Shown: positions 12,715 through 22,033 of the stretch, piece by piece
How the letters are laid out: each line of letters begins with the position of its first letter
Position numbering within the stretch: the first letter of the stretch is position 1
Source of the DNA: Microbacterium sp. BK668
GTDB taxonomy: Bacteria; Actinomycetota; Actinomycetes; Actinomycetales; Microbacteriaceae
NCBI RefSeq assembly: GCF_004362195.1
Contig: NZ_SNWG01000001.1
Coordinates: forward strand, 1,612,001-1,676,000
Length of the DNA stretch: 64,000 nucleotides
Reading direction: 5' to 3'
The notes under the pieces: generated by a model
What the model saw: only the letters and a program-made list of their open reading frames with translations
Databases searched by the model: none
What the model was told of the DNA's origin: nothing
Program-made: the position numbers and the translations under genes

Positions 12715-12788
12715 GGCAGGGTAGCTCAGTTGGTGAGAGCGCACGACTCATAATCGTGAGGTCGCGGGTTCAAGCCCCGCTCCTGCTA
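12715..12788 (+). tRNA. tRNA-Met (CAT), elongator; island integration target
   Basis: 74 nt. Acceptor GGCAGGG/TCCTGCT with G-U ends, anticodon stem CACGA/TCGTG and loop CTCATAA giving anticodon CAT. The anticodon stem lacks the three consecutive G-C pairs of initiator tRNA, so this is the elongator. Its 3' part from the anticodon loop onward is repeated exactly at 21988-22033, marking an integration site. Confidence 0.96.
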
Positions 12789-12791
12789 CGA
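12746..12791 (+). repeat. attL: left 46-bp direct repeat
   Basis: Runs from the anticodon loop of tRNA-Met to three bases past the gene. All 46 bases are identical to 21988-22033. The bases just outside differ on both sides, which defines the repeat ends. Confidence 0.92.
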
Positions 12792-12792
12792 G

Positions 12793-12816
12793 AAAACCCA
12801 GCTCAGCTGGGTTTTT
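12793..12816 (+). terminator. Terminator after tRNA-Met on the island side
   Basis: AAAACCCAGC and GCTGGGTTTT pair around a 3-base loop and are followed by T residues. It was supplied by the island and replaces the host terminator now found at 22036. Confidence 0.85.
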
Positions 12817-13172
12817 CTGTTGCACCGTTAATGACCGGTAACGACACGCCGTATGTGAGCCGGTTTTGGGGCGGTCGGCGCTCTACTAACTGCGACCAAC
12901 TGACAGTAACGGGCACCCACGCAAGACGCCGACAGGCGGTTTGTGACCTCACGATTATGGATTTCGCAATCGTGAGGTCGCCAACCTGGGCCATCCTCTT
13001 GCGGAGCGCCGCGAGAGTGATTTTCGCTGCTGATCACGCGCGTCCCCAGCGGACGGACGCGGCGCACGCGATATCGACGGCCCAGTGAAGCGCGAGGCAC
13101 GACCGAGCTGTGAGCACCGTCGGACTCTGTGTCGGACTGGCGGCGTTGCTTTCGGAGCGGCCCGGCAGCGGA
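12817..13172. other. Island left end, no gene recognised
   Basis: About 350 bp without a convincing coding frame. It contains the words GCCGGTTTTGGG (12859), ACTAACTGCG and TGCGACCAAC (12891), which recur at the right end near 21865-21899, and the inverted repeat of the tRNA-Met anticodon arm at 12945-12979. These look like recombinase-binding or leftover att-flanking sequences. Confidence 0.55.
12945..12979. repeat. Inverted repeat copying the att core
   Basis: GACCTCACGATT and AATCGTGAGGTC form perfect 12-bp arms around 11 bases. The left arm extended to 15 bases is the complement of the tRNA-Met anticodon arm, and the right arm extended to 14 bases is a direct copy of it. Two extra partial att cores thus lie inside the island, 165 bp from attL. 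Confidence 0.8.
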
Positions 13173-15032
13173 TCATGCCGGTGAGCAGTTGGGGAGTGAG
13201 AGGAGGTTGTTGTTAGAGGTCGCGTCCGCCGTCGTTCGGATATACGGATCTCCCTCTGCCGGGGTAACGACCTCGACGTCGGCCCGAGCGCCGTTCTCGG
13301 CCTGAACGAAAAACCGTTGACCGTCAAGGATCGCGCTTACCATTCCCGGCTTCGTGGCGGTCCAGCGGAATCCCTGTGCATTGCGTCCGCCGAACGCGAT
13401 CAGCCCTGCCTCGTCCGCTTCGCTATTTGGGCGGACGACGCACTCGATTCTGCCGTTATGCCAGTTGATGATGCAGGAGCTCGCACTCGTCGATCGGACA
13501 CCCATGTCGTCCGCGATTTCGAGGGAGAACGTGTACTCCCCGTTCGCGATGTGCCGGCCGCCGCCGGCTGTGTCGCCCATCCAGATCAGGCGGGTGGCTT
13601 GCCCGGGGTTCGCGGAAACTCGCATGCGGTCCCATACGTTGTCGATCGAGGAGTCGAGCGCGAAGGGGTCGCTTCGCGTAGCGATGGCCTGTGCAGGGCC
13701 ATCCTTGTAGCTCACACGCAGGCTCAGGTACACAGGGTGCGATGTCCTGCTGGTCCAGTCCGCGAGGATCGAGGGCGGCACGAACCACCAGTGCGGTGAC
13801 GCGATGAACCGGTTAATCGTCACCGGCGGCTGGATCTTGGAAAAGGCGGAAAACCGAGTTGGCACACCCCCACGAGGCACCATGGTGTACCGAACTTCGA
13901 CCCCGGGCACCGTCGGCCCATACCTGCTATCCATGACCCGCCGAGCGAGGACTTTCATGTCGGTGCCTCGTGTGGCCGTATGTGTTCTGGTGGTTCCTGT
14001 CTGCGGATCGTCGACATGGCCGTCAACAGGGAAGACCTCAGGAGGTATGCCCGGTCGGAACGCTGCGCACCACAGCACAGAGTTGGATCCCCCCGCGAAG
14101 ACGAGGATCTGCTCCTCGTCCGCAACCGCGGCAAGCCCAGCACCGTACCCGTCGGGATCGCCTGGCTCTCCGGGATCGTCCAGTTCTCGGGCCAGCAGCC
14201 AAGGTTCGTGCACCCATCCTGTCGGCGTCCGGTGGGCGTGATGGACCGCACGGCGTCCGTCTGGCGCCCCAAGCGCTGTCGTATAGAAGAGGTGCAGCTC
14301 GCCGTTCCAGGCCACGGCCGCGAGATTCGTGGGTGGGTCGTCGGCGTGTACCGCGAGGGTCCACCGCTCGAAGGTCCACGTCCCGGCTTCGACAGAGATG
14401 TGGGGCGGTGGGGCGTAGTTGCCGTGCATACCGGCAAAGAGCACGGAGATGCTCTGGTCAGGCAATGTCAACGCGGTCAGCGAGTGCGTGGTGCGGCCAG
14501 TGAGTGCAGGAAGAGTCTCGTAGCGGAAGAGCGTGGGAGAGTTCGGTCCTTGGCGGAACGCGTGGCGAACACTCTCCCTGCCTCCTGCCTCTCGTTGGGT
14601 GTAGAAGACGTTCAGCGAACGCGCGCCGCCCGCGGCAGCGACGCGCCATCCTACAGCGGAGTCGACCCGCCCGTCCCGGTCGCCGGCATCTCCGTCGACG
14701 GGGCCGAGGTCGCGCCAGCGATCTCGGCCATCACCTTCGGCGGCGTAGAGCATCGGCAATTCCCGGTATCTCGTCGGCGTCAGCCGCTGCCAGAAAACCC
14801 AAATCCTTCCCATGTAGTGCGCGGCCGCGAATGTATCCAGGCCGAGGTTTCGCGTCGCGTGCCGGCTGACGCGTCTGCCCTCGACGTAGATGCGGCGGCT
14901 CTTGAGATCGTCTGGGTCGTCCTGCTTCGAGAAAAGCAGCTGCGGGTCGCCCTCCGCGTAGGTTGCTATGCGCTCGTCACGTGCCGGCGTTGGCCAATCA
15001 GAGTAGTAAGTCCACACGATCGCTCGATTCAC
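13173..15032 (-). CDS. Propeller-like protein with C-terminal DUF3892-like domain, function unknown
   Basis: 619 residues, no signal peptide and no membrane segment. Residues about 30-360 show repeated short beta-rich phrases ending in LxLFY or IxVFW patterns (HYMGRIWVFWQR, SISVLFAGMHGN, AVAWNGELHLFYTT, EEQILVFAGGSNSVLWCAAF), suggesting a beta-propeller or lectin-like fold. A second beta-rich part follows (about 370-550). The last 60 residues, with FFVQAENG, DPYIRTTADAT and NNNLLSLPNC, resemble DUF3892. The GTG start at 15032 overlaps the TGA of the small upstream gene (GTGA), so the two are translationally coupled; a longer frame from 15167 would run back through that gene and is less likely. 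Last gene of the minus-strand cassette. Confidence 0.7.
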   Translation of the reverse strand: MNRAIVWTYYSDWPTPARDERIATYAEGDPQLLFSKQDDPDDLKSRRIYVEGRRVSRHATRNLGLDTFAAAHYMGRIWVFWQRLTPTRYRELPMLYAAEGDGRDRWRDLGPVDGDAGDRDGRVDSAVGWRVAAAGGARSLNVFYTQREAGGRESVRHAFRQGPNSPTLFRYETLPALTGRTTHSLTALTLPDQSISVLFAGMHGNYAPPPHISVEAGTWTFERWTLAVHADDPPTNLAAVAWNGELHLFYTTALGAPDGRRAVHHAHRTPTGWVHEPWLLARELDDPGEPGDPDGYGAGLAAVADEEQILVFAGGSNSVLWCAAFRPGIPPEVFPVDGHVDDPQTGTTRTHTATRGTDMKVLARRVMDSRYGPTVPGVEVRYTMVPRGGVPTRFSAFSKIQPPVTINRFIASPHWWFVPPSILADWTSRTSHPVYLSLRVSYKDGPAQAIATRSDPFALDSSIDNVWDRMRVSANPGQATRLIWMGDTAGGGRHIANGEYTFSLEIADDMGVRSTSASSCIINWHNGRIECVVRPNSEADEAGLIAFGGRNAQGFRWTATKPGMVSAILDGQRFFVQAENGARADVEVVTPAEGDPYIRTTADATSNNNLLSLPNCSPA

Positions 15033-15511
15033 TGGTGGCGATGGGCGGACGGTGTAAGTAGTGGCGCGATCTCCGACCCGCGGGTTACCTCGGCACGGTG
15101 AACTCCCGGAGGGAAGGCGCGCCCCGTGCAGGGCGGGGCGAAGACGAGACCGAAGCACCATCCCCACCGCTCCGTGTACTCACTTCCGTCGGAGCAGCAA
15201 AACTTCAGGGTCTGCACGAACCCGTAGCAGTTCGCTCCTACGAACCAACAACCCGGCCGGGGGAGCGGCGGACCGCTCCGGTTCGGCCCGATGACGACCA
15301 GCTCGTCGAGCTTGCCAGCACGTTCCTCACAGCTGCGGCATGGCCGGACACCAAGAACCTGCGAGAGGGACTTGAGGATCTCGCCGAGCCCGCGCGATCT
15401 CCGAGTCACGCGTGCCGGTACACCGACGTAGAGGGCCGGGCGACCATGCGACTCCGCGCCGCGCTCCGTGATCGGCATCTCATCCACCACCAACTTCTTC
15501 CGTACGCTCAC
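15029..15511 (-). CDS. Small Cys-rich protein, function unknown
   Basis: 160 residues from a GTG start. The middle holds LGEILKSLSQVLGVRPCRSC followed by EERAGKLDEL, which matches a widespread pattern (amphipathic helix, GxxPCxxCxxRxxxLN) found at the ends of small uncharacterised and phage-associated proteins. A second Cys cluster follows: CWFVGANCYGF, KFCCSDG, WGWCFGLVFAPPC. Nine Cys in about 75 residues suggests metal binding or disulfides. There is no signal peptide. It lies 34 bp after the phospholipase-D-like gene and overlaps the next gene by 4 bases, so it is the middle member of the cassette. No function can be assigned. Confidence 0.6.
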   Translation of the reverse strand: MSVRKKLVVDEMPITERGAESHGRPALYVGVPARVTRRSRGLGEILKSLSQVLGVRPCRSCEERAGKLDELVVIGPNRSGPPLPRPGCWFVGANCYGFVQTLKFCCSDGSEYTERWGWCFGLVFAPPCTGRAFPPGVHRAEVTRGSEIAPLLTPSAHRHQ

Positions 15512-15545
15512 ATCTGCAGTGAACTGGGATCGACCGCTGCTCGAA

Positions 15546-17630
15546 CTAGTCGAGGACGACCATCCGGCTCGTGTCGATGCCGAGACCTGCGAGCTGGTCG
15601 GCGTCTTTCGTTTCGAACCGGTAGGGGAGTATTCGGCCTCGGCTCATCCGGGGTGAGTTGAGGCTGAGCGATGCGACGTTGGCGGCTGCGCGCTCCTGCC
15701 ACAGCGACAGCCACCCTTGCGGCGGCCGGGAGGCGGGAAGCGGGCCAAGATGCTCGGACCACAGTCGTGACCGTAGGGCGCCAACCGCGCCCGTCGCGGG
15801 CTGGTCTGCAACGCCGTCGAGGAGGACTGCGTTGACTTCGACGCTGCGTTTGTCTCCGCGGTAGAGCTCGCGGGCGCCCTCAAGCGAGATCCCGTCGAGG
15901 TTCGCGGTGCCCACCGTCGCCCACGACGTGTCCACGATTCCGACTTTCGAATGCACGTAGACCTGTTGGATGCCGGTCTTCCCTGCAACCGGACCGATCT
16001 GCCAGAGGGTGAACGCGCCTATCTGAGGATGCGGCATCCCCAGTTCACCGACCATCCGCCACTGCTGCCACCGACGGTAGGTGGGGATGTCGGGACTCTG
16101 GTTGATGAGAAGAATGACTTGGAGGGAAGGATTGACGGCGAGGGCACGACGCAACGCGTGTACGGCTTCTCCGCTGCTGAAGTACTGATTCTCCAGATAG
16201 ATGACATCCGTGGCCGCGCCGATCGCCCTCTGGTACGCCTCGAGGACCCCCGCTTCGCCCTTAGCGGTTGCGGGGATCGCGCGTTGCGGGATGGATCGCA
16301 CGATCTGGACACTTTGGCTCCCGACAGCGGGCGGCTGGACTATGGAAGGCAGCTTGTCAGCGCCACGGAAGGCGACATCCGACCGATGGTTCCACATGAG
16401 GGAGAACGTCCGGGCGATGTCAGCGGTCGCGGGACCTGTCATGCTGATCGAAACGTCGTGCACAGGCCGCAATCCGATACCGCTTGCGCCGTGGCTGCCG
16501 CGGCGCGGGTCGACGAGCAGGTGGGACGGAGTGTCCCAGTAGCCTTGCTCGAAGGGTGATCCGATGATCATCGCCCTCGCGGTCGGCAGGCCCGGATCCG
16601 TGATCAGAATCTTCGCGTGCATCGTCTCGAAGGTGAGGGGGAACGAGCGCACCGACACCGTGTGTGGTGCGCGTTGCGCGAACCAGTCTCTGACTTCGTC
16701 GATCGTATCGGGAACGATCGCGTTCTCGTTCAGAAGCACGCGGACGGTGACGCCGGGCCGTTGCCCGGCCTTGAACAGGCTGTCCAACACGAGTGAATCC
16801 GCATGTGTCGCGTTCGTTGGCACCGGGTCTTGGCCCGTGAACGTGGCGATGAAGCCAGTGTCGATCGCGAGCTGCGCAAGGTGCACTTCCGTGGTGGCCG
16901 CGTCGATCAACTCCACAAGCCGTCGCGCGGCGATCGCGTTGTCGACGAGAACTTCAACATCGTTGCCGGATGACAGGCGGGGCGTATTGCTCCGTCCGAG
17001 GGTCACGAGCCATCCTTCGGCCGCGGCCCGGGGCACCACTATGTCTTTCACAACGAGCACCGATTCCGCGACGTTCCGCGCCTCGGATGTCTGCGCCAGC
17101 TGACGGATGCCCACGCGATCGAACACCGTCACCACGATGTCCGGCCGCTCCGACAGCTCGTTGTACACAGTCGGCGAGTACGAGAGAGACCACCTGCCGT
17201 CGGCATCGGTGGCCGTGCGGCCCAACGGGTCGCCGCCGATGAGGTCCAAATCCGTCGCGACGATCACGAGTCCTGCGATCGGGCGCCCCTGCACGTCCAG
17301 CACTCGGCCCTGCACTCCAACGTTGACACCGCTCAGGGTAATGTCGCCGAGCTGCAGGACCTCCTCTGCGACGTCGGTGGCCTTCTTCGTCACAAACAGC
17401 AACGACCCTCCGGTAGAGCGGATTTCGACGACGACGTCGGGCCGGCGTTCGTCGAGCCCGTACGCTTCTGCTGGGTAGGTCAGCGAGAACGCGCCGACGC
17501 TATCCGTGGCTCCCTGTTGCAGAAAGTCTCGGAATGGCCACCCGTCGTCGTCGTATACCCTGACGTTCAGTCCAGGCTGCGGCGCGCCAGTCGTGTCGAC
17601 CACTCGCCCGGAAACTGATGTGTTGACCAT
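15546..17630 (-). CDS. Phospholipase-D-superfamily protein with two transthyretin-like domains
   Basis: 694 residues. Two N-terminal carboxypeptidase-regulatory/transthyretin-like beta domains occur at about residues 4-100 and 104-200; each has a SGRVVD or QGRVLD start, a GxFSLTY or GRWSLSY strand and an ERRPDVVVEI or ERPDIVVTVF strand. Then a two-lobed PLD fold carries both catalytic HKD motifs intact: His338-Lys340-Asp345 (MHAKILITD) and His560-Lys562-Asp567 (VHSKVGIVD), the second followed by GTANLDG. Family members cut phosphodiester bonds in lipids or nucleic acids; which one here is unknown. No secretion signal is visible. AGGAGA seven bases before the ATG is a strong ribosome site. Head of the three-gene minus-strand cassette. 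Confidence 0.8.
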   Translation of the reverse strand: MVNTSVSGRVVDTTGAPQPGLNVRVYDDDGWPFRDFLQQGATDSVGAFSLTYPAEAYGLDERRPDVVVEIRSTGGSLLFVTKKATDVAEEVLQLGDITLSGVNVGVQGRVLDVQGRPIAGLVIVATDLDLIGGDPLGRTATDADGRWSLSYSPTVYNELSERPDIVVTVFDRVGIRQLAQTSEARNVAESVLVVKDIVVPRAAAEGWLVTLGRSNTPRLSSGNDVEVLVDNAIAARRLVELIDAATTEVHLAQLAIDTGFIATFTGQDPVPTNATHADSLVLDSLFKAGQRPGVTVRVLLNENAIVPDTIDEVRDWFAQRAPHTVSVRSFPLTFETMHAKILITDPGLPTARAMIIGSPFEQGYWDTPSHLLVDPRRGSHGASGIGLRPVHDVSISMTGPATADIARTFSLMWNHRSDVAFRGADKLPSIVQPPAVGSQSVQIVRSIPQRAIPATAKGEAGVLEAYQRAIGAATDVIYLENQYFSSGEAVHALRRALAVNPSLQVILLINQSPDIPTYRRWQQWRMVGELGMPHPQIGAFTLWQIGPVAGKTGIQQVYVHSKVGIVDTSWATVGTANLDGISLEGARELYRGDKRSVEVNAVLLDGVADQPATGAVGALRSRLWSEHLGPLPASRPPQGWLSLWQERAAANVASLSLNSPRMSRGRILPYRFETKDADQLAGLGIDTSRMVVLD

Positions 17631-17634
17631 TGGT

Positions 17635-17940
17635 CTATCTCCTCGAATCGCCGGAGCGGGCCGATCCGGTCTGCTCCTCGTAAATGTTTGTTCGGACCTT
17701 CTCGGGTTCTGGCGAAGAGCGATGCTGGCGCATCGCCCAAGGGCGAGACAACAGTCGATCGACGGACGACGCGGGCTTGAAGTCTGGACGGGGATCGCTC
17801 ACGGTTGCACGACGTTGGTCGTACACGCCGATCGCGCGATCGCTGACTACTGTCATGTGCCCCGATCCGCCGCCGCTCAGACCTACCAAGGGGCCCCAAA
17901 GACCTTGAACAGATCTGATGGTTTGGATCCCGAGGCACAT
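17635..17940 (-). CDS. Possible small ORF before the PLD gene
   Basis: 101 codons ending 4 bases before the PLD start, so co-translation is possible. The protein is basic and low in hydrophobics, resembles nothing I know, and has only a weak GGGG ribosome site. It may be leader RNA rather than a gene. Confidence 0.25.
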   Translation of the reverse strand: MCLGIQTIRSVQGLWGPLVGLSGGGSGHMTVVSDRAIGVYDQRRATVSDPRPDFKPASSVDRLLSRPWAMRQHRSSPEPEKVRTNIYEEQTGSARSGDSRR

Positions 17941-18080
17941 CGCCCCGAAGAACGGCTTCGCGACCGGGAAGATCGCCCCTCAACCATTTCGGCCCCCAGA
18001 CGGTGTAGAGCGGAACACGTGGGCCGTTCAATTCGGCCCCTCGTTCCCATGCTCCATGTTGTTTGGGTATCGATCGCCGG

Positions 18081-18323
18081 TCACGATCCGTTCACGCCCG
18101 CCGGGCGGGCTGCCGACTCTGACTCGATTCGGTAAAGGTGCGTCACGCATGAGCTCGCTTCCGGAGGTCCTCTGCTGACTGACTGGGTTCCCGTTGATGT
18201 CGTGCCGCCGGACTGAGACGGAATGGAAGACCTCATCCCGTTTGCCGTCCCACTGACCCGGGTCATCTCAGCTCTCCGAATGACACTTGATCCGTTGATA
18301 GTGACGAGACCCTTGTCGGCCAT
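18081..18323 (-). CDS. Possible small ORF, perhaps frameshifted
   Basis: 80 codons beginning MADKGLVTINGSSVIRRAE, with a good ribosome site (GAAGGA, 8 bases before the ATG). After about codon 20 the codon choice in this frame becomes unlike a gene, while the neighbouring frame (reading DEVFHSVSVRRHDINGNP and on to about 18005) looks more gene-like. A frameshifted small gene at the head of the PLD cassette is a reasonable reading. No family is recognised. Confidence 0.35.
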   Translation of the reverse strand: MADKGLVTINGSSVIRRAEMTRVSGTANGMRSSIPSQSGGTTSTGTQSVSRGPPEASSCVTHLYRIESESAARPAGVNGS

Positions 18324-18515
18324 TATTGGTTTCCTTCAGATTGCCGGTCCCGCCGACCGGTCTCATGACGATGCTGGCGGGCGGCCCCTGAAGTTGCGTC
18401 CACCTGAAGGATTCGTCTCGTGCGTCAAGGGGCGCGAGCGGACTAGCCGCAAGTTGGAGCTTGGGTCCCACTCAGGTCTGATGCGTCTTGCGGATGACGG
18501 CAGTACGCTCGCGCC

Positions 18516-20345
18516 ATGTGGCTACGCCGGCCGACCGTCGCGGAAGCCGTCTTGGCGATCATTTGCGGCACTAACGTCGCGGTCTACTTGGTGCCGACGA
18601 CGGCGTGGGATATTCCTGCGGCGCTCGCGGCGGCCGGTCTTATTCTGGTGATGCCGCAACGCCCGGTCATCGCCGGCGCCCTGGTCTTAGTGTTGCAGTT
18701 GACGTTGACGTTCACTGACCTCATCAATAGCTCGAATGCCGGGTTCCTGGCGACGTACTTCGTTGGCGTGTACTTCCTGGGTCGGTACGCGGAGCCGTGG
18801 CGAGGCGGCCTGATCGCGCTGACCTTCGCGGCCGTGTTCACCTGGGGAGTGTGGAACTTCGGGACCATCGCATTCTCCCTGGTGCTCACCGGATGCACCT
18901 TCGGGTACGGCCGAGTCGTTCAACTCCGCGCGCAGAGGGCGGAACGCGCCAGGATGTCGACGGCGGAACTGGAGGCAACGGATGCGGCGTTGCTCGCCGC
19001 TCGGATCGTCGCTGACGAGCGGGCACGCTTGGGAGGACAGTCTCTCGAGCTGCTCCGCGCCGCGGTGGAAGGCATGCGCGCTGATGCCGCGGCCGCGCGC
19101 GCCGATCTCGACGCGACCCTCATCGAGTCGGTCTGCCAGCGGGGGCGGCAAGGGGTCGCGGAGCTGCGATGGCTGCTCGGGATCCTTCGGTCCGAGCCCG
19201 CACCGGATCCACCGAAAAGGCTGACGGCTCGGTGGCGACCCATCGTGGACGTCATCGTGGGCTCCGTGTTGCTGGTTATCTGTGTGCTGGAGGTGTGGTT
19301 CCAAGTGTGGGAGCCGGCTTCGCCGCTCTCCTGGGTGCTCGCCGTGATGCTTCCGGCGTGCACGCTCATACGGCGGCGCTTCACCCTGCTGGCCTGCACG
19401 GTGGCGGCCGTCGGCGTATGGGCGGGGCTTCTGAGCGGAGTGCTGCCGAGCATCGGGGAACTGCTCTGCGCCACCTTTCTGGCCTGGTCGGCCGGTACCG
19501 CCGCGCGAGCGGTGGTGTGGCTGGCGTTCGGGGCTCTCGCGGTCGGCGTGGCTGCCTGGGGCTCACTGCACGATCCGGGGAATGCTATATTCACGTTCGC
19601 ACTGCTCGCGCTGCCCGCGTTCGCCGGGTTCGAGTGGTCAGCGGAAGACCGCGCGGCGCGCGCCGCCACCGCCCGGGCGGATCGACTACGTGCGGACCTG
19701 AAGGCGAGGGTGGAGTCGGCGCGCCGTGAGGAGCGGTTGCGCCTGGCCCGTGAACTGCACGACGTGACCAGCCACGCCGTTGGCGTGATGGTGCTGCAGG
19801 CCTCCGCCGCGTCCGCCCTGCGCGACCGCGACCCCGCTGCAGCGAGTGAAGCGCTGAAGACGGTGGACAAGACGGCCGCGCAGACATTGCAGGAGCTGGA
19901 TCTGATGTTCGAGCTGCTCGATTCCGGGGCGATCGGCGCCCCCGGACTGGCAACCCCCACGCACGAGCCGTTGCAGACCCTCGTCGACCGGATACGCAAG
20001 ACCGGGCTCGCCATCTCCCTCGCGCAGGCATCCATCCCTCGGCACCTGGATGATGTCGTCTACCGCATCGTTCAGGAGAGCCTGACCAACATCGTGCGGC
20101 ACTCCAACGCCCAACACGTCCGGATCAGCGTCGCCGTGTCGGAGGGGAAGGTGACGGTGCGCGTCGTCGACAACGGCACTCAGACGCCGGGCGGACGCAA
20201 CCCCAGCTCGGACAGTCCGGGGTTCGGCCTGGCAGGTCTCGGGGAGCGCGTCGACCGCGTCGGCGGGACTTTCCGTGCCGGATGGCAAGAGCAGGGCTTC
20301 ACCGTCGAGGCCGTGCTGACCATCGAGCCGGCGGTGACCTCGTGA
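18516..20345 (+). CDS. Sensor histidine kinase (NarL/DesK-type, HisKA_3)
   Basis: 609 residues, unusually long for this class because it seems to contain two membrane blocks: four or five segments in residues 10-130, then a helical region with a DHp-like remnant (about 150-220), then a second membrane block (about 245-380). The dimerisation and phosphoacceptor helix RLARELHDVTSHAVGVMV has His415; a HATPase domain follows with N-box QESLTNIVRHS and a G-box GFGLAGLGERV. The GTGA overlap with the regulator gene makes this a cognate pair. The ligand is unknown; no transporter or other obvious target is next to it on the island. Confidence 0.88.
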   Translation: MWLRRPTVAEAVLAIICGTNVAVYLVPTTAWDIPAALAAAGLILVMPQRPVIAGALVLVLQLTLTFTDLINSSNAGFLATYFVGVYFLGRYAEPWRGGLIALTFAAVFTWGVWNFGTIAFSLVLTGCTFGYGRVVQLRAQRAERARMSTAELEATDAALLAARIVADERARLGGQSLELLRAAVEGMRADAAAARADLDATLIESVCQRGRQGVAELRWLLGILRSEPAPDPPKRLTARWRPIVDVIVGSVLLVICVLEVWFQVWEPASPLSWVLAVMLPACTLIRRRFTLLACTVAAVGVWAGLLSGVLPSIGELLCATFLAWSAGTAARAVVWLAFGALAVGVAAWGSLHDPGNAIFTFALLALPAFAGFEWSAEDRAARAATARADRLRADLKARVESARREERLRLARELHDVTSHAVGVMVLQASAASALRDRDPAAASEALKTVDKTAAQTLQELDLMFELLDSGAIGAPGLATPTHEPLQTLVDRIRKTGLAISLAQASIPRHLDDVVYRIVQESLTNIVRHSNAQHVRISVAVSEGKVTVRVVDNGTQTPGGRNPSSDSPGFGLAGLGERVDRVGGTFRAGWQEQGFTVEAVLTIEPAVTS

Positions 20346-21016
20346 CGGATGCCCCGCCGATCCGTGTGCTTCTCGCCGACGACCAGCACCTCATCAGGGG
20401 CGGCCTGCGCGCGATCATCGACACCGAACCAGACATGCGCGTTGTCGGGGAAGCATCCGACGGCGCCTCCGCGGCACGCGAAGCTGTCACAACCCGCGCC
20501 GACGTGGTCCTGATGGACGTGCAAATGCCCGGAGTGGACGGCATAGACGGAGTGCGGCTCGTCATCGACGCCCGCCCCGAAGCACGCGTGCTTATGCTGA
20601 CCATGTTCGACCTCGATGACTACGTCCTACGCGCGCTGCGCGCCGGTGCGAGCGGCTTCCTCCTGAAGACCACACCACCCGCCGAGCTGACCGCAGCGAT
20701 CCGCGCCTCACAGAGCGGCGCCATGCTCTTCGCACCGTCCGTCACTCGCCGTCTCGTCGAGTCGTACGTGAAGCAGCCCCCCACCCTGGACGGCATCCCC
20801 GAGCGGCTCGCCCCCCTGACACCACGCGAGCTCGACGTCTTCGAGGCGATCGCTCGAGGCCTGTCGAACAGCGAGATCGGCGCGAAGCTATACATGGGCG
20901 AAGCGACCGTGAAAACGCACGTAACGCGTATCCTGTCGAAGTTGGGCTTGCGCGACCGCGTCCAAGCCGTCGTCCTCGCATACGACTGCGGAGTCATGCG
21001 CCCAGCAACCGACTGA
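20342..21016 (+). CDS. Response regulator, NarL/LuxR family
   Basis: 224 residues. Receiver domain with acidic pocket Asp13-Asp14, phosphoacceptor Asp59 (VVLMDVQMPG) and Lys in FLLKTTPP; C-terminal LuxR helix-turn-helix (LTPRELDVFEAIARGLSNSE, then GEATVKTHVTRILSKLGLRD). The GTG start overlaps the kinase stop, so a longer in-frame N-terminus is rejected. It should bind DNA on phosphorylation by the upstream kinase. No target promoter can be assigned from sequence. Confidence 0.9.
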   Translation: MTDAPPIRVLLADDQHLIRGGLRAIIDTEPDMRVVGEASDGASAAREAVTTRADVVLMDVQMPGVDGIDGVRLVIDARPEARVLMLTMFDLDDYVLRALRAGASGFLLKTTPPAELTAAIRASQSGAMLFAPSVTRRLVESYVKQPPTLDGIPERLAPLTPRELDVFEAIARGLSNSEIGAKLYMGEATVKTHVTRILSKLGLRDRVQAVVLAYDCGVMRPATD

Positions 21017-21049
21017 CCCGCCCAGAGGCGCCTCGAGCCAGCCGCGTAA

Positions 21050-21175
21050 CAGAGGCGCAGCCCCGCCAGCTCCGCAGACGGGGCCGACGGCGGCAGCCCC
21101 TACGTGTTGGAGTGCAACGTGGACGGCGAGCGACAACGCCGAGCGCTCGGTCGGTACACCACCGAGCGGGCGTAG
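21050..21175 (+). other. Short open fragment, possibly integrase arm-domain debris
   Basis: Open between stops, ending SPYVLECNVDGERQRRALGR plus YTTERA. The pattern (tyrosine, short beta turn DGER, then basic residues before LGRY and a Thr) recalls the arm-DNA-binding domain at the N-terminus of tyrosine integrases, but the match is short. There is no start codon with a ribosome site. Treated as debris, not a gene. Confidence 0.25.
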
Positions 21176-21706
21176 TCAGCACGTTAGCTTCTCGTCAGCG
21201 AATTCCGGTGGCCACACCACCGAGAACCGCTCGAGCACGATCTCGTCCGTCTCCAACCAGGTCGCCCCACGTGCGGCCGCGCCGCGCTCCCAGTAGCGGC
21301 GATGGTTCCGCCGCCAACTCTCCAGTGACCGGTCGTCCTCGCCCTCGTCGAAGGCGAACTGCGCATCCACGTCGTTGAAGACACACAGTCGCAACTCCAC
21401 CGATCGGATGACGAGCCGCGGCACGCCCCGCCCGTCGCAGGCAATTCAGTGCGAGCCGATCCGCGGCAGCTCCTCGCCCTCGGCGAGGAAGTCGGCGACA
21501 AGCGCTGCCGTGGCTCGCTTGCGGCCGGTCAGGACCAGCTCCAGTAATTCATCGGCGAGACTCTCGGAGTCGCCGAAGTGCTCCAAGGTGTACTCGGCCG
21601 AAACTCTCACAACCTGGGGGTGCGCCTGCGCGTACGCCGCCCACATCACCTCGGCGGCCGCGCGATCACCGGCAGCTGCGCGCTTGGAATAGGAAACGTC
21701 GGTCAC
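21176..21706 (-). pseudogene. ASCH-domain protein interrupted by an in-frame TGA
   Basis: From GTG 21706 the frame gives an ASCH-family N-terminus (EVMWAAYAQAHP, DELLELVLTGRKRATAAL, LPRIGSH) and then meets TGA at 21446-21448. The same frame continues straight on with IACDGRGVPRLVIRSVEL and the rest of the domain to LTC at 21176. The family normally has Trp or another hydrophobic residue after the GSH/GDH turn, so TGG to TGA is the simplest change. ASCH is a PUA-like fold thought to bind RNA or modified nucleosides. Expect 176 codons with codon 87 a stop. Either a true pseudogene or a sequencing error; island decay favours the former. Confidence 0.8.
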
Positions 21707-21987
21707 ACGGTCATCATCACACTCCGCCACGTGACGCGTCATCCACCCGGCGTCGTGAACTGTGATGGGTACGGCCGTCACCACCACGACCTCGCGCCGC
21801 TGCGCGACGCTATCTACAACGCGCAGACGGCCCGATACCTACACGGCGGCCATCTTCGCGACGGGCCGGTTTTGGGCCGGTTCGCCCGTTGCGACCAACG
21901 AGGACTAACTGCGCCTAACAAGCACGGCACCCGCGAAATCCCGCGTCCAATGAGTATTAATTGCGACTCGTGAGGCCGCCCGGTTCA

Positions 21988-22033
21988 ACTCATAATCGTG
22001 AGGTCGCGGGTTCAAGCCCCGCTCCTGCTACGA
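21988..22033 (+). repeat. attR: right 46-bp direct repeat
   Basis: Identical to the 3' part of tRNA-Met at 12746-12791, including the whole T arm and acceptor strand, but with no 5' half of a tRNA before it. A looser copy of the core, CTCGTGAGGCCGCC, lies just upstream at 21967-21980. Confidence 0.92.

Follow-up and report, generated by a model that had tools for sequence, protein, structure and literature searches.

Within a 64,000-nucleotide stretch of the Microbacterium sp. BK668 genome (contig NZ_SNWG01000001.1, positions 1,612,001 to 1,676,000 of the forward strand; hereafter the window), we analysed three adjacent minus-strand genes on an island at a tRNA gene. Their products, here called A, B and C, may constitute a membrane-lipid enzyme with two partner proteins. 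In window coordinates they are:

15546-17630, minus strand: A, predicted eukaryotic-type phospholipase D (PLD), 694 amino acids (aa); two CarboxypepD_reg/transthyretin-like (TTR) domains, followed by HKD1 (H338) and HKD2 (H560); free of strongly hydrophobic stretches.
15029-15511, minus strand: B, small Cys-rich protein of 160 aa, or 149 aa if translated from an internal ATG; N-module at about 27-76 (GLG..CxxC..R...LD) and a six-Cys conserved core at 88-128.
13173-15032, minus strand: C, orphan protein, 619 aa; DUF3892 at the C-terminus.

The open reading frame (ORF) coordinates placed A and B 34 bases apart and showed a GTGA shared by the B stop and the GTG start of C, the same layout of three minus-strand genes that an earlier, sequence-only reading of this DNA had described. 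Third-position GC was 0.75-0.78 in the three genes, against 0.86-0.91 in three genes beyond the island. We infer that the trio is one transcript, i.e. a three-gene operon; a promoter/terminator scan gave two terminator-like sites, below the counts in shuffled sequence. The start of B is uncertain over its first 11 residues, as a database entry for this protein starts from the internal ATG. A plus-strand ORF opposite C (13980-15101) was taken as spurious because C itself has a curated domain.

Pfam searches located CarboxypepD_reg (7.5e-13) and PLDc_2 (8.7e-15) in two stretches each of A, and the HKD residues H338/K340/D345 and H560/K562/D567 could be read directly. H338, K340, K562 and D567 were invariant in a 31-row alignment including A, while D345 and H560 were at least 90% conserved. 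The two intact HKD motifs and two N-terminal transthyretin-like domains claimed earlier were thus recovered by Pfam, by direct reading and by alignment. When the 31-row profile was searched against the PDB, the best matches were plant PLDalpha1 (4.4e-24), human PLD1 (2.2e-23), human PLD2 (2e-22) and 7v53 (4.2e-20), which we take to be PldA of P. aeruginosa. These were followed by 7e0m, named 'Phospholipase' (9.6e-9), and then by 8ctq, 8ctp, 1v0r and 1f0i (6e-4 to 3e-3), the last two presumably Streptomyces enzymes. Searched as a single sequence, A matched 7v53 best (1.3e-8), with PLDalpha1 at 5.4e-8, and a narrower alignment (A3) was concordant. By profile, A is nearer to eukaryotic PLDs than to other bacterial PLDs.

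The A alignments also contained, in order, the motif pairs GSPFEQGYWDTPSH/GGIDLAYGRWDDNEH, RPVHD/MPWHD, YLENQYF/YIENQFF and LWSEHLG/LWYEHLG; the PWHD, ENQ and EHLG motifs are known marks of eukaryotic PLD. Like plant PLDalpha and human PLD1/PLD2, A combines two HKD motifs in one chain with the same succession of (P)WHD-like, ENQ(Y/F)F and EHLG motifs. Unlike the eukaryotic enzymes, the A type occurs in bacteria and archaea, and its N-terminus contained two CarboxypepD_reg/TTR domains and no PX/PH or C2 domain in the Pfam search. PMC9550806 describes PX/PH or C2 N-termini for eukaryotic PLDs and assigns PldA to a eukaryotic-like PLD group: it has a eukaryotic-like active site, a peripheral helical domain replacing PX/PH or C2, and a C-terminal domain not present in prokaryote PLDs. 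The catalytic His aligned in 7v53 at 855, which equals the number given for PldA in PMC9550806. From these sequence comparisons A is very likely a eukaryotic-type PLD with a lipid substrate, a class assignment that is well supported, and it would be catalytically active on a membrane target. The fold had earlier been called nuclease or lipase; it can now be specified as eukaryotic-type PLD, with a lipase the likelier of the two. A nuclease is not preferred because the nearest solved relatives are lipid-cleaving PLDs, the PLD3/PLD4 exonucleases (2.6e-4 at best), a virion nicking-joining enzyme (0.0046) and TrmBL2 (0.0055) being far weaker matches. Part of the N-terminal region matched a lipoxygenase chain (5ek8, 6.1e-7) in the PDB profile search, a possible hint of a lipid-facing role. 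Averaged over 19-residue stretches, the hydropathy of A, B and C stayed at or below 1.41, against 2.51 in the neighbouring membrane kinase; judged from this hydropathy scan only, A is fairly likely to be intracellular.

Scoring in the protein searches with A and C was confined to the 8000 candidates with the most words in common with the query. Both PF13620 and PF13091 were present in 25 of the 69 A matches, A included, so the TTR-PLD pairing, previously considered unusual, is not unique. Eight close relatives (P0002-P0009; sources jgi, lgn and ena) were 59-68% identical over the whole length. A contig scan with the A alignment found 366 stretches encoding a relative; the top identity among the best 80 was 47%, so that none was as close as the eight, and a scan with the A sequence alone gave no match. 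The close A-type reached E <= 1e-40 in 1/396 phylum genomes when two candidates were scored in each. Across archaea and several phyla of bacteria, A-like PLDs as a whole were found next to varied genes, for example in methanogens and Nitrospira.

B has a CxxC pair (58, 61) and six further cysteines (88, 95, 105, 106, 119, 128), all eight invariant in 14 rows including B. The two Cys clusters seen at first sight therefore held, and by this alignment B is a true family under strong constraint. An AlphaFold2 model (mean predicted local distance difference test score 74, predicted template modelling score 0.46) suggested helices at 42-52 and 59-71 and a beta meander at 88-123. Full-length B was detected in one of 198 genus genomes, namely its own, and outside it in 0/393 class and 0/395 phylum genomes (overlapping samples). 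These absences are those of genome samples in which 9 (class, phylum), 18 (genus) or up to 124 candidates (30 genomes with A relatives, see below) were scored per genome. In phages only the N-module of B was matched, in four Nonlabens records (E 0.2-0.3), and B had no plasmid match and no viral-contig match.

Rows P0003 (A search) and P0074 (B search) give the same sources (jgi, lgn), the same number of contigs (2) and the same longest contig (16570). The listed size equalled the actual contig in two checked cases (P0012/L003, 10464; P0015/L005, 72303). A and B are thus probably together on one other contig, as judged from these matching rows.

C matched DUF3892 at 7.8e-9 (36.3 bits, Pfam cut-off 22.3), over profile positions 34-71 of 71 only, and its tail matched phrog_8224 (5.9e-12). 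The DUF3892-like tail of the sequence-only reading is therefore confirmed above the gathering cut-off, for the second half of the model. The propeller-like repeats also claimed there were not recovered: the best off-diagonal self-match had P = 0.067 (hhalign), and C had no match to a Pfam propeller family or in the PDB. In PMC12419801 (section 28), DUF3892 is described as typically fused to Min-Wnt domains, its fold is also reported in double-stranded RNA-binding and HPF proteins, and it may sense viral RNA or modified ribosomes. The same section presents Min-Wnt as an enzyme that works inside the cell, with lipid head groups as its predicted substrates and lipid-linked precursors as possible targets, and proposes an antiviral function for it (PMC12419801).

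The mobile-looking island that carries the three genes is 9.24 kb long (12792-22033) and is bounded by an exact 46-bp direct repeat:

12746-12791, plus strand: left attachment repeat, the 3' half of tRNA-Met; exact 46-bp repeat.
21988-22033, plus strand: right attachment repeat, an exact 46-bp copy of the left one.

GC was 0.653 inside the island and 0.705 in the remaining window. The placement of the trio on an island was already part of the sequence-only reading, and the tRNA-Met repeat and lower GC sharpen it. The tRNA-Met gene is an integration hot spot in the genus. Further partial copies occurred on the same contig in 4/16 other same-genus genomes (G002, G008, G011, G015), and the G015 element at the same tRNA had a tyrosine-integrase-like ORF adjoining it, as read by eye. 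No integrase was seen by eye among our island ORFs, and an Rfam scan gave nothing beyond two tRNAs. Eight relatives aligned only at the tRNA side plus a 44-bp repeat, with the downstream flank unmatched, so that no island-free site was obtained from them. Three elements read at tRNA-Met (L125, L126, L127) had different ORFs in each.

We tentatively propose that the trio is an intracellular conflict effector attacking membrane lipids, with two binding or sensing partners, a possibility that we rate slightly short of even. A would be soluble and cytoplasmic and would act from the cytoplasmic side of the membrane; its two transthyretin-like domains would occupy the position that PX/PH or C2 domains have in animal and plant PLDs. 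It would hydrolyse or swap phospholipid head groups via a phosphohistidine intermediate, and thereby damage or remodel the membrane. C, with its DUF3892 tail, could be the sensing or targeting partner, and B, stabilised by disulphides or metal, an adaptor or brake. Such an effector would be switched on in its own cell, in a manner resembling abortive infection, against phage or other mobile DNA. Counted in favour were the PLD profile kinship and conserved catalytic residues of A, the low hydropathy, the constraint on B, the A-B rows, the tRNA island and the rarity of the genes. An intracellular conflict role is favoured mainly because of the parallel with the Min-Wnt-DUF3892 effectors (PMC12419801). 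These likewise have DUF3892 and a predicted lipid-head-group enzyme without an evident secretion signal; here, however, the enzyme is a PLD and not a lipocone, and enzyme and DUF3892 are in separate proteins. A conflict role of any kind, with the self-directed form favoured, is at least evenly poised and perhaps somewhat probable. This agrees with the earlier suggestion of an enzyme accompanied by binding or escort proteins, with a possible effector function, and specifies the enzyme; one conserved system has not emerged. A more elaborate version, which we consider improbable, is an undescribed immune device in which the DUF3892 sensor licenses a separate PLD to strip head groups from its own membrane on infection, with the Cys-rich adaptor restraining it. 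By analogy, and with the same low expectation, that device could be a split version of the proposed Min-Wnt-DUF3892 logic, its adaptor containing a module that also occurs in PatG/S8 clusters and in a Nonlabens phage protein.

Several results weigh against the conflict effector. Whole-genome searches around A relatives covered 30 of the 34 loci L002-L035 (L013, L022, L031 and L033 were left out); among these 30 genomes with distant A relatives, of unstated completeness, DUF3892 was found in none and full-length B in none, with the N-module only in one. The trio was not found elsewhere; whether it is conserved together was a check put forward in the sequence-only reading. The next ORF downstream of the A relative was instead an unrelated, DUF6603-type gene (cluster c1) in at least 17 of the 34 best loci, a lower bound because some other contigs end early. 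The protein search with C returned only C itself, with no relatives in the PDB, phages or plasmids and none of use among the ORFs around A relatives (best E 0.21); given that C lacks a homologue, the three genes may be neighbours by chance. The promoter/terminator scan gave no promoter-like site, A was absent from phage records, and an antiviral role of DUF3892 has itself only been proposed. Weak DrmC matches to A were the sole defence-family signal in PADLOC, with none for B or C. Overall, A and B are reasonably likely to be a functional unit, while for A, B and C together we consider this almost balanced, on the doubtful side.

Two known arrangements were rejected. DISARM shares only generic PLD/HKD similarity with A through DrmC (PADLOC 4e-5, NCBIfam 3.9e-5), with 23.3 bits against an NCBIfam cut-off of 133 and no DISARM partner matched by B or C in PADLOC. 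The trio as phage or plasmid cargo was rejected on the phage result, on the absence of A from the viral contigs reached by our search patterns, and on the 87 plasmid records matching A, where the 20 matches listed cover the PLD part only at 24-28% identity and B and C have no plasmid match.

The 7v53 match raises the possibility that A serves as a weapon against other cells. It would then be a membrane lipase that leaves the producer through lysis or by some other route, with C for binding or targeting and B as cognate inhibitor or packaging factor, similar to PldA (Tle5), a type VI secretion system (T6SS) effector. PldA is likewise a bacterial eukaryotic-like PLD and the best single-sequence match, and PMC9550806 gives it a cognate inhibitor, PA3488. 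However, the match reflects the enzyme family only, and A has a different N-terminus and different neighbours. No hydrophobic export-like stretch appeared in A, B or C in the hydropathy scan (no signal-peptide predictor was run). Nor were secretion, T6SS or other injection genes seen by eye among the island ORFs (no whole-genome T6SS search was made). We consider such a weapon rather unlikely.

It is also unlikely that A is an ordinary lipid-remodelling or phosphatidyl-transfer enzyme carried as passenger cargo, with B and C as unrelated neighbours. The varied neighbours of A-like PLDs in methanogens, Nitrospira and others would fit this, as would the lack of C relatives. It is opposed by the probable recurrence of the A-B pair on a second contig, the tight spacing with its GTGA overlap, and the rarity of both the close A-type in the phylum and B in the genus.

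A last possibility starts from the N-module of B, which was found alone, without the Cys core, in G215, G408, G465, G544 and the Nitrospira genome G968, and weakly in G865 (2.7e-4). In the first five it was a stand-alone protein less than 2 kb from a PatG-like gene, and S8 peptidase ORFs were present in the four class loci (G215, G408, G465, G544; two Pfam-tested, two by eye). PatG_C was found in 12 genomes of the 394-genome class sample, including all four module genomes (12 of 393 in the hypergeometric comparison, P = 5e-7, uncorrected for relatedness). Where PatG_C occurred without the module, the frames were long (622-862 aa) and probably encode fused proteases; the exception was G432, whose frame has 270 aa and where 15 kb of sequence contained no module. 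B could thus be a precursor or partner in Cys-rich peptide maturation related to these cyanobactin-like PatG_D/PatG_C and S8 clusters, with A and C accessory, which is very unlikely: G865 has no PatG within its 3.2-kb locus, PatG_C was not found in the BK668 genome in the sample that gave the 12 others, and the trio has no PatG-like gene and no protease was seen by eye among the island ORFs.

The module was also observed in its own right. In L088-L091 and L132 (5113-7472), a module of about 50 residues (GLGD..K..T...GI.PC..C..RA..LN) stands beside short PatG_D/PatG_C and Cys-rich proteins; an S8 peptidase is present in four of the five loci, and one Cys-rich neighbour is STIG1-like. It is also present in gp37 of Nonlabens phage P12024L (L130, 3974-4333), two genes before the terminase large subunit; gp37 matched a module model built without it at 5e-12, and also phrog_32048.

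Besides the trio, the island holds a HisKA_3 kinase, a LuxR-type regulator and an ASCH-domain fragment:

18516-20345, plus strand: HisKA_3 histidine kinase, in the island and divergent from A-B-C.
20282-21016, plus strand: LuxR-type response regulator, next after the kinase; coordinates are those of the listed ORF, whose actual start is probably more internal.

That the kinase regulates the trio is only a guess. Strong kinase homologues were found in 1/38 other genus genomes (G023), as two copies each adjoining a regulator, with other neighbours in the short contigs read. Because of these other neighbours, the kinase-regulator pair was rejected as part of the system and treated as co-resident cargo. 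The ASCH-domain ORF (21176-21424) matches the C-terminal half of the model only, and a second same-direction ORF upstream had no match; the region (21176-21787, minus strand) is probably a decayed gene. Just within the left border, an imperfect palindrome (12938-12986; 19-nt arms, 89%) holds the attachment-core sequence AATCGTGAGGTCGC and is a possible recombinase site.

The genes downstream of A relatives form a pattern of their own. Two c1 proteins tested were DUF6603 (2.5e-113 and 7.7e-136), a family of which we found no mention in the literature searched. A c2 protein follows in L011, L015, L016, L019, L023 and L025; two c2 and two c3 proteins had no Pfam match above cut-off. The order of A-type PLD, then DUF6603-type c1, often with large c2/c3 proteins, was seen in Anaerophaga, Chitinispirillaceae, Acidobacteria, Myxococcota, Nitrospira, Actinomadura and others (e.g. 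L011 10001-21827, L015 10004-21848, L016 8453-20337 and L019 10001-22009). After c1, the L021 locus has a Peptidase_M64 protein (Pfam; 15868-18441) and a second c1, and homologous ORFs resembling M64 by eye lie near A-type PLDs of Nitrospira/Actinomadura (L021 734-2530, L020 1734-3530, L023 7474-9465). This grouping looks like an undescribed conserved cluster.

For the trio itself, a literature search of limited extent turned up no described system of this composition, in line with the sequence-only reading. To our knowledge, eukaryotic-type phospholipases D are rare in prokaryotes, and PldA, the prokaryotic one compared here, is an injected effector. A soluble TTR-domain PLD branch, together with Cys-rich and DUF3892 proteins on a tRNA island, would make the idea of a prokaryotic intracellular PLD defence testable, and the trio would also offer a test of what DUF3892 senses. 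It brings out a short, so far unnamed Cys-pair module tied to S8/PatG clusters, and A may belong to a defence or competition device undescribed as a set.

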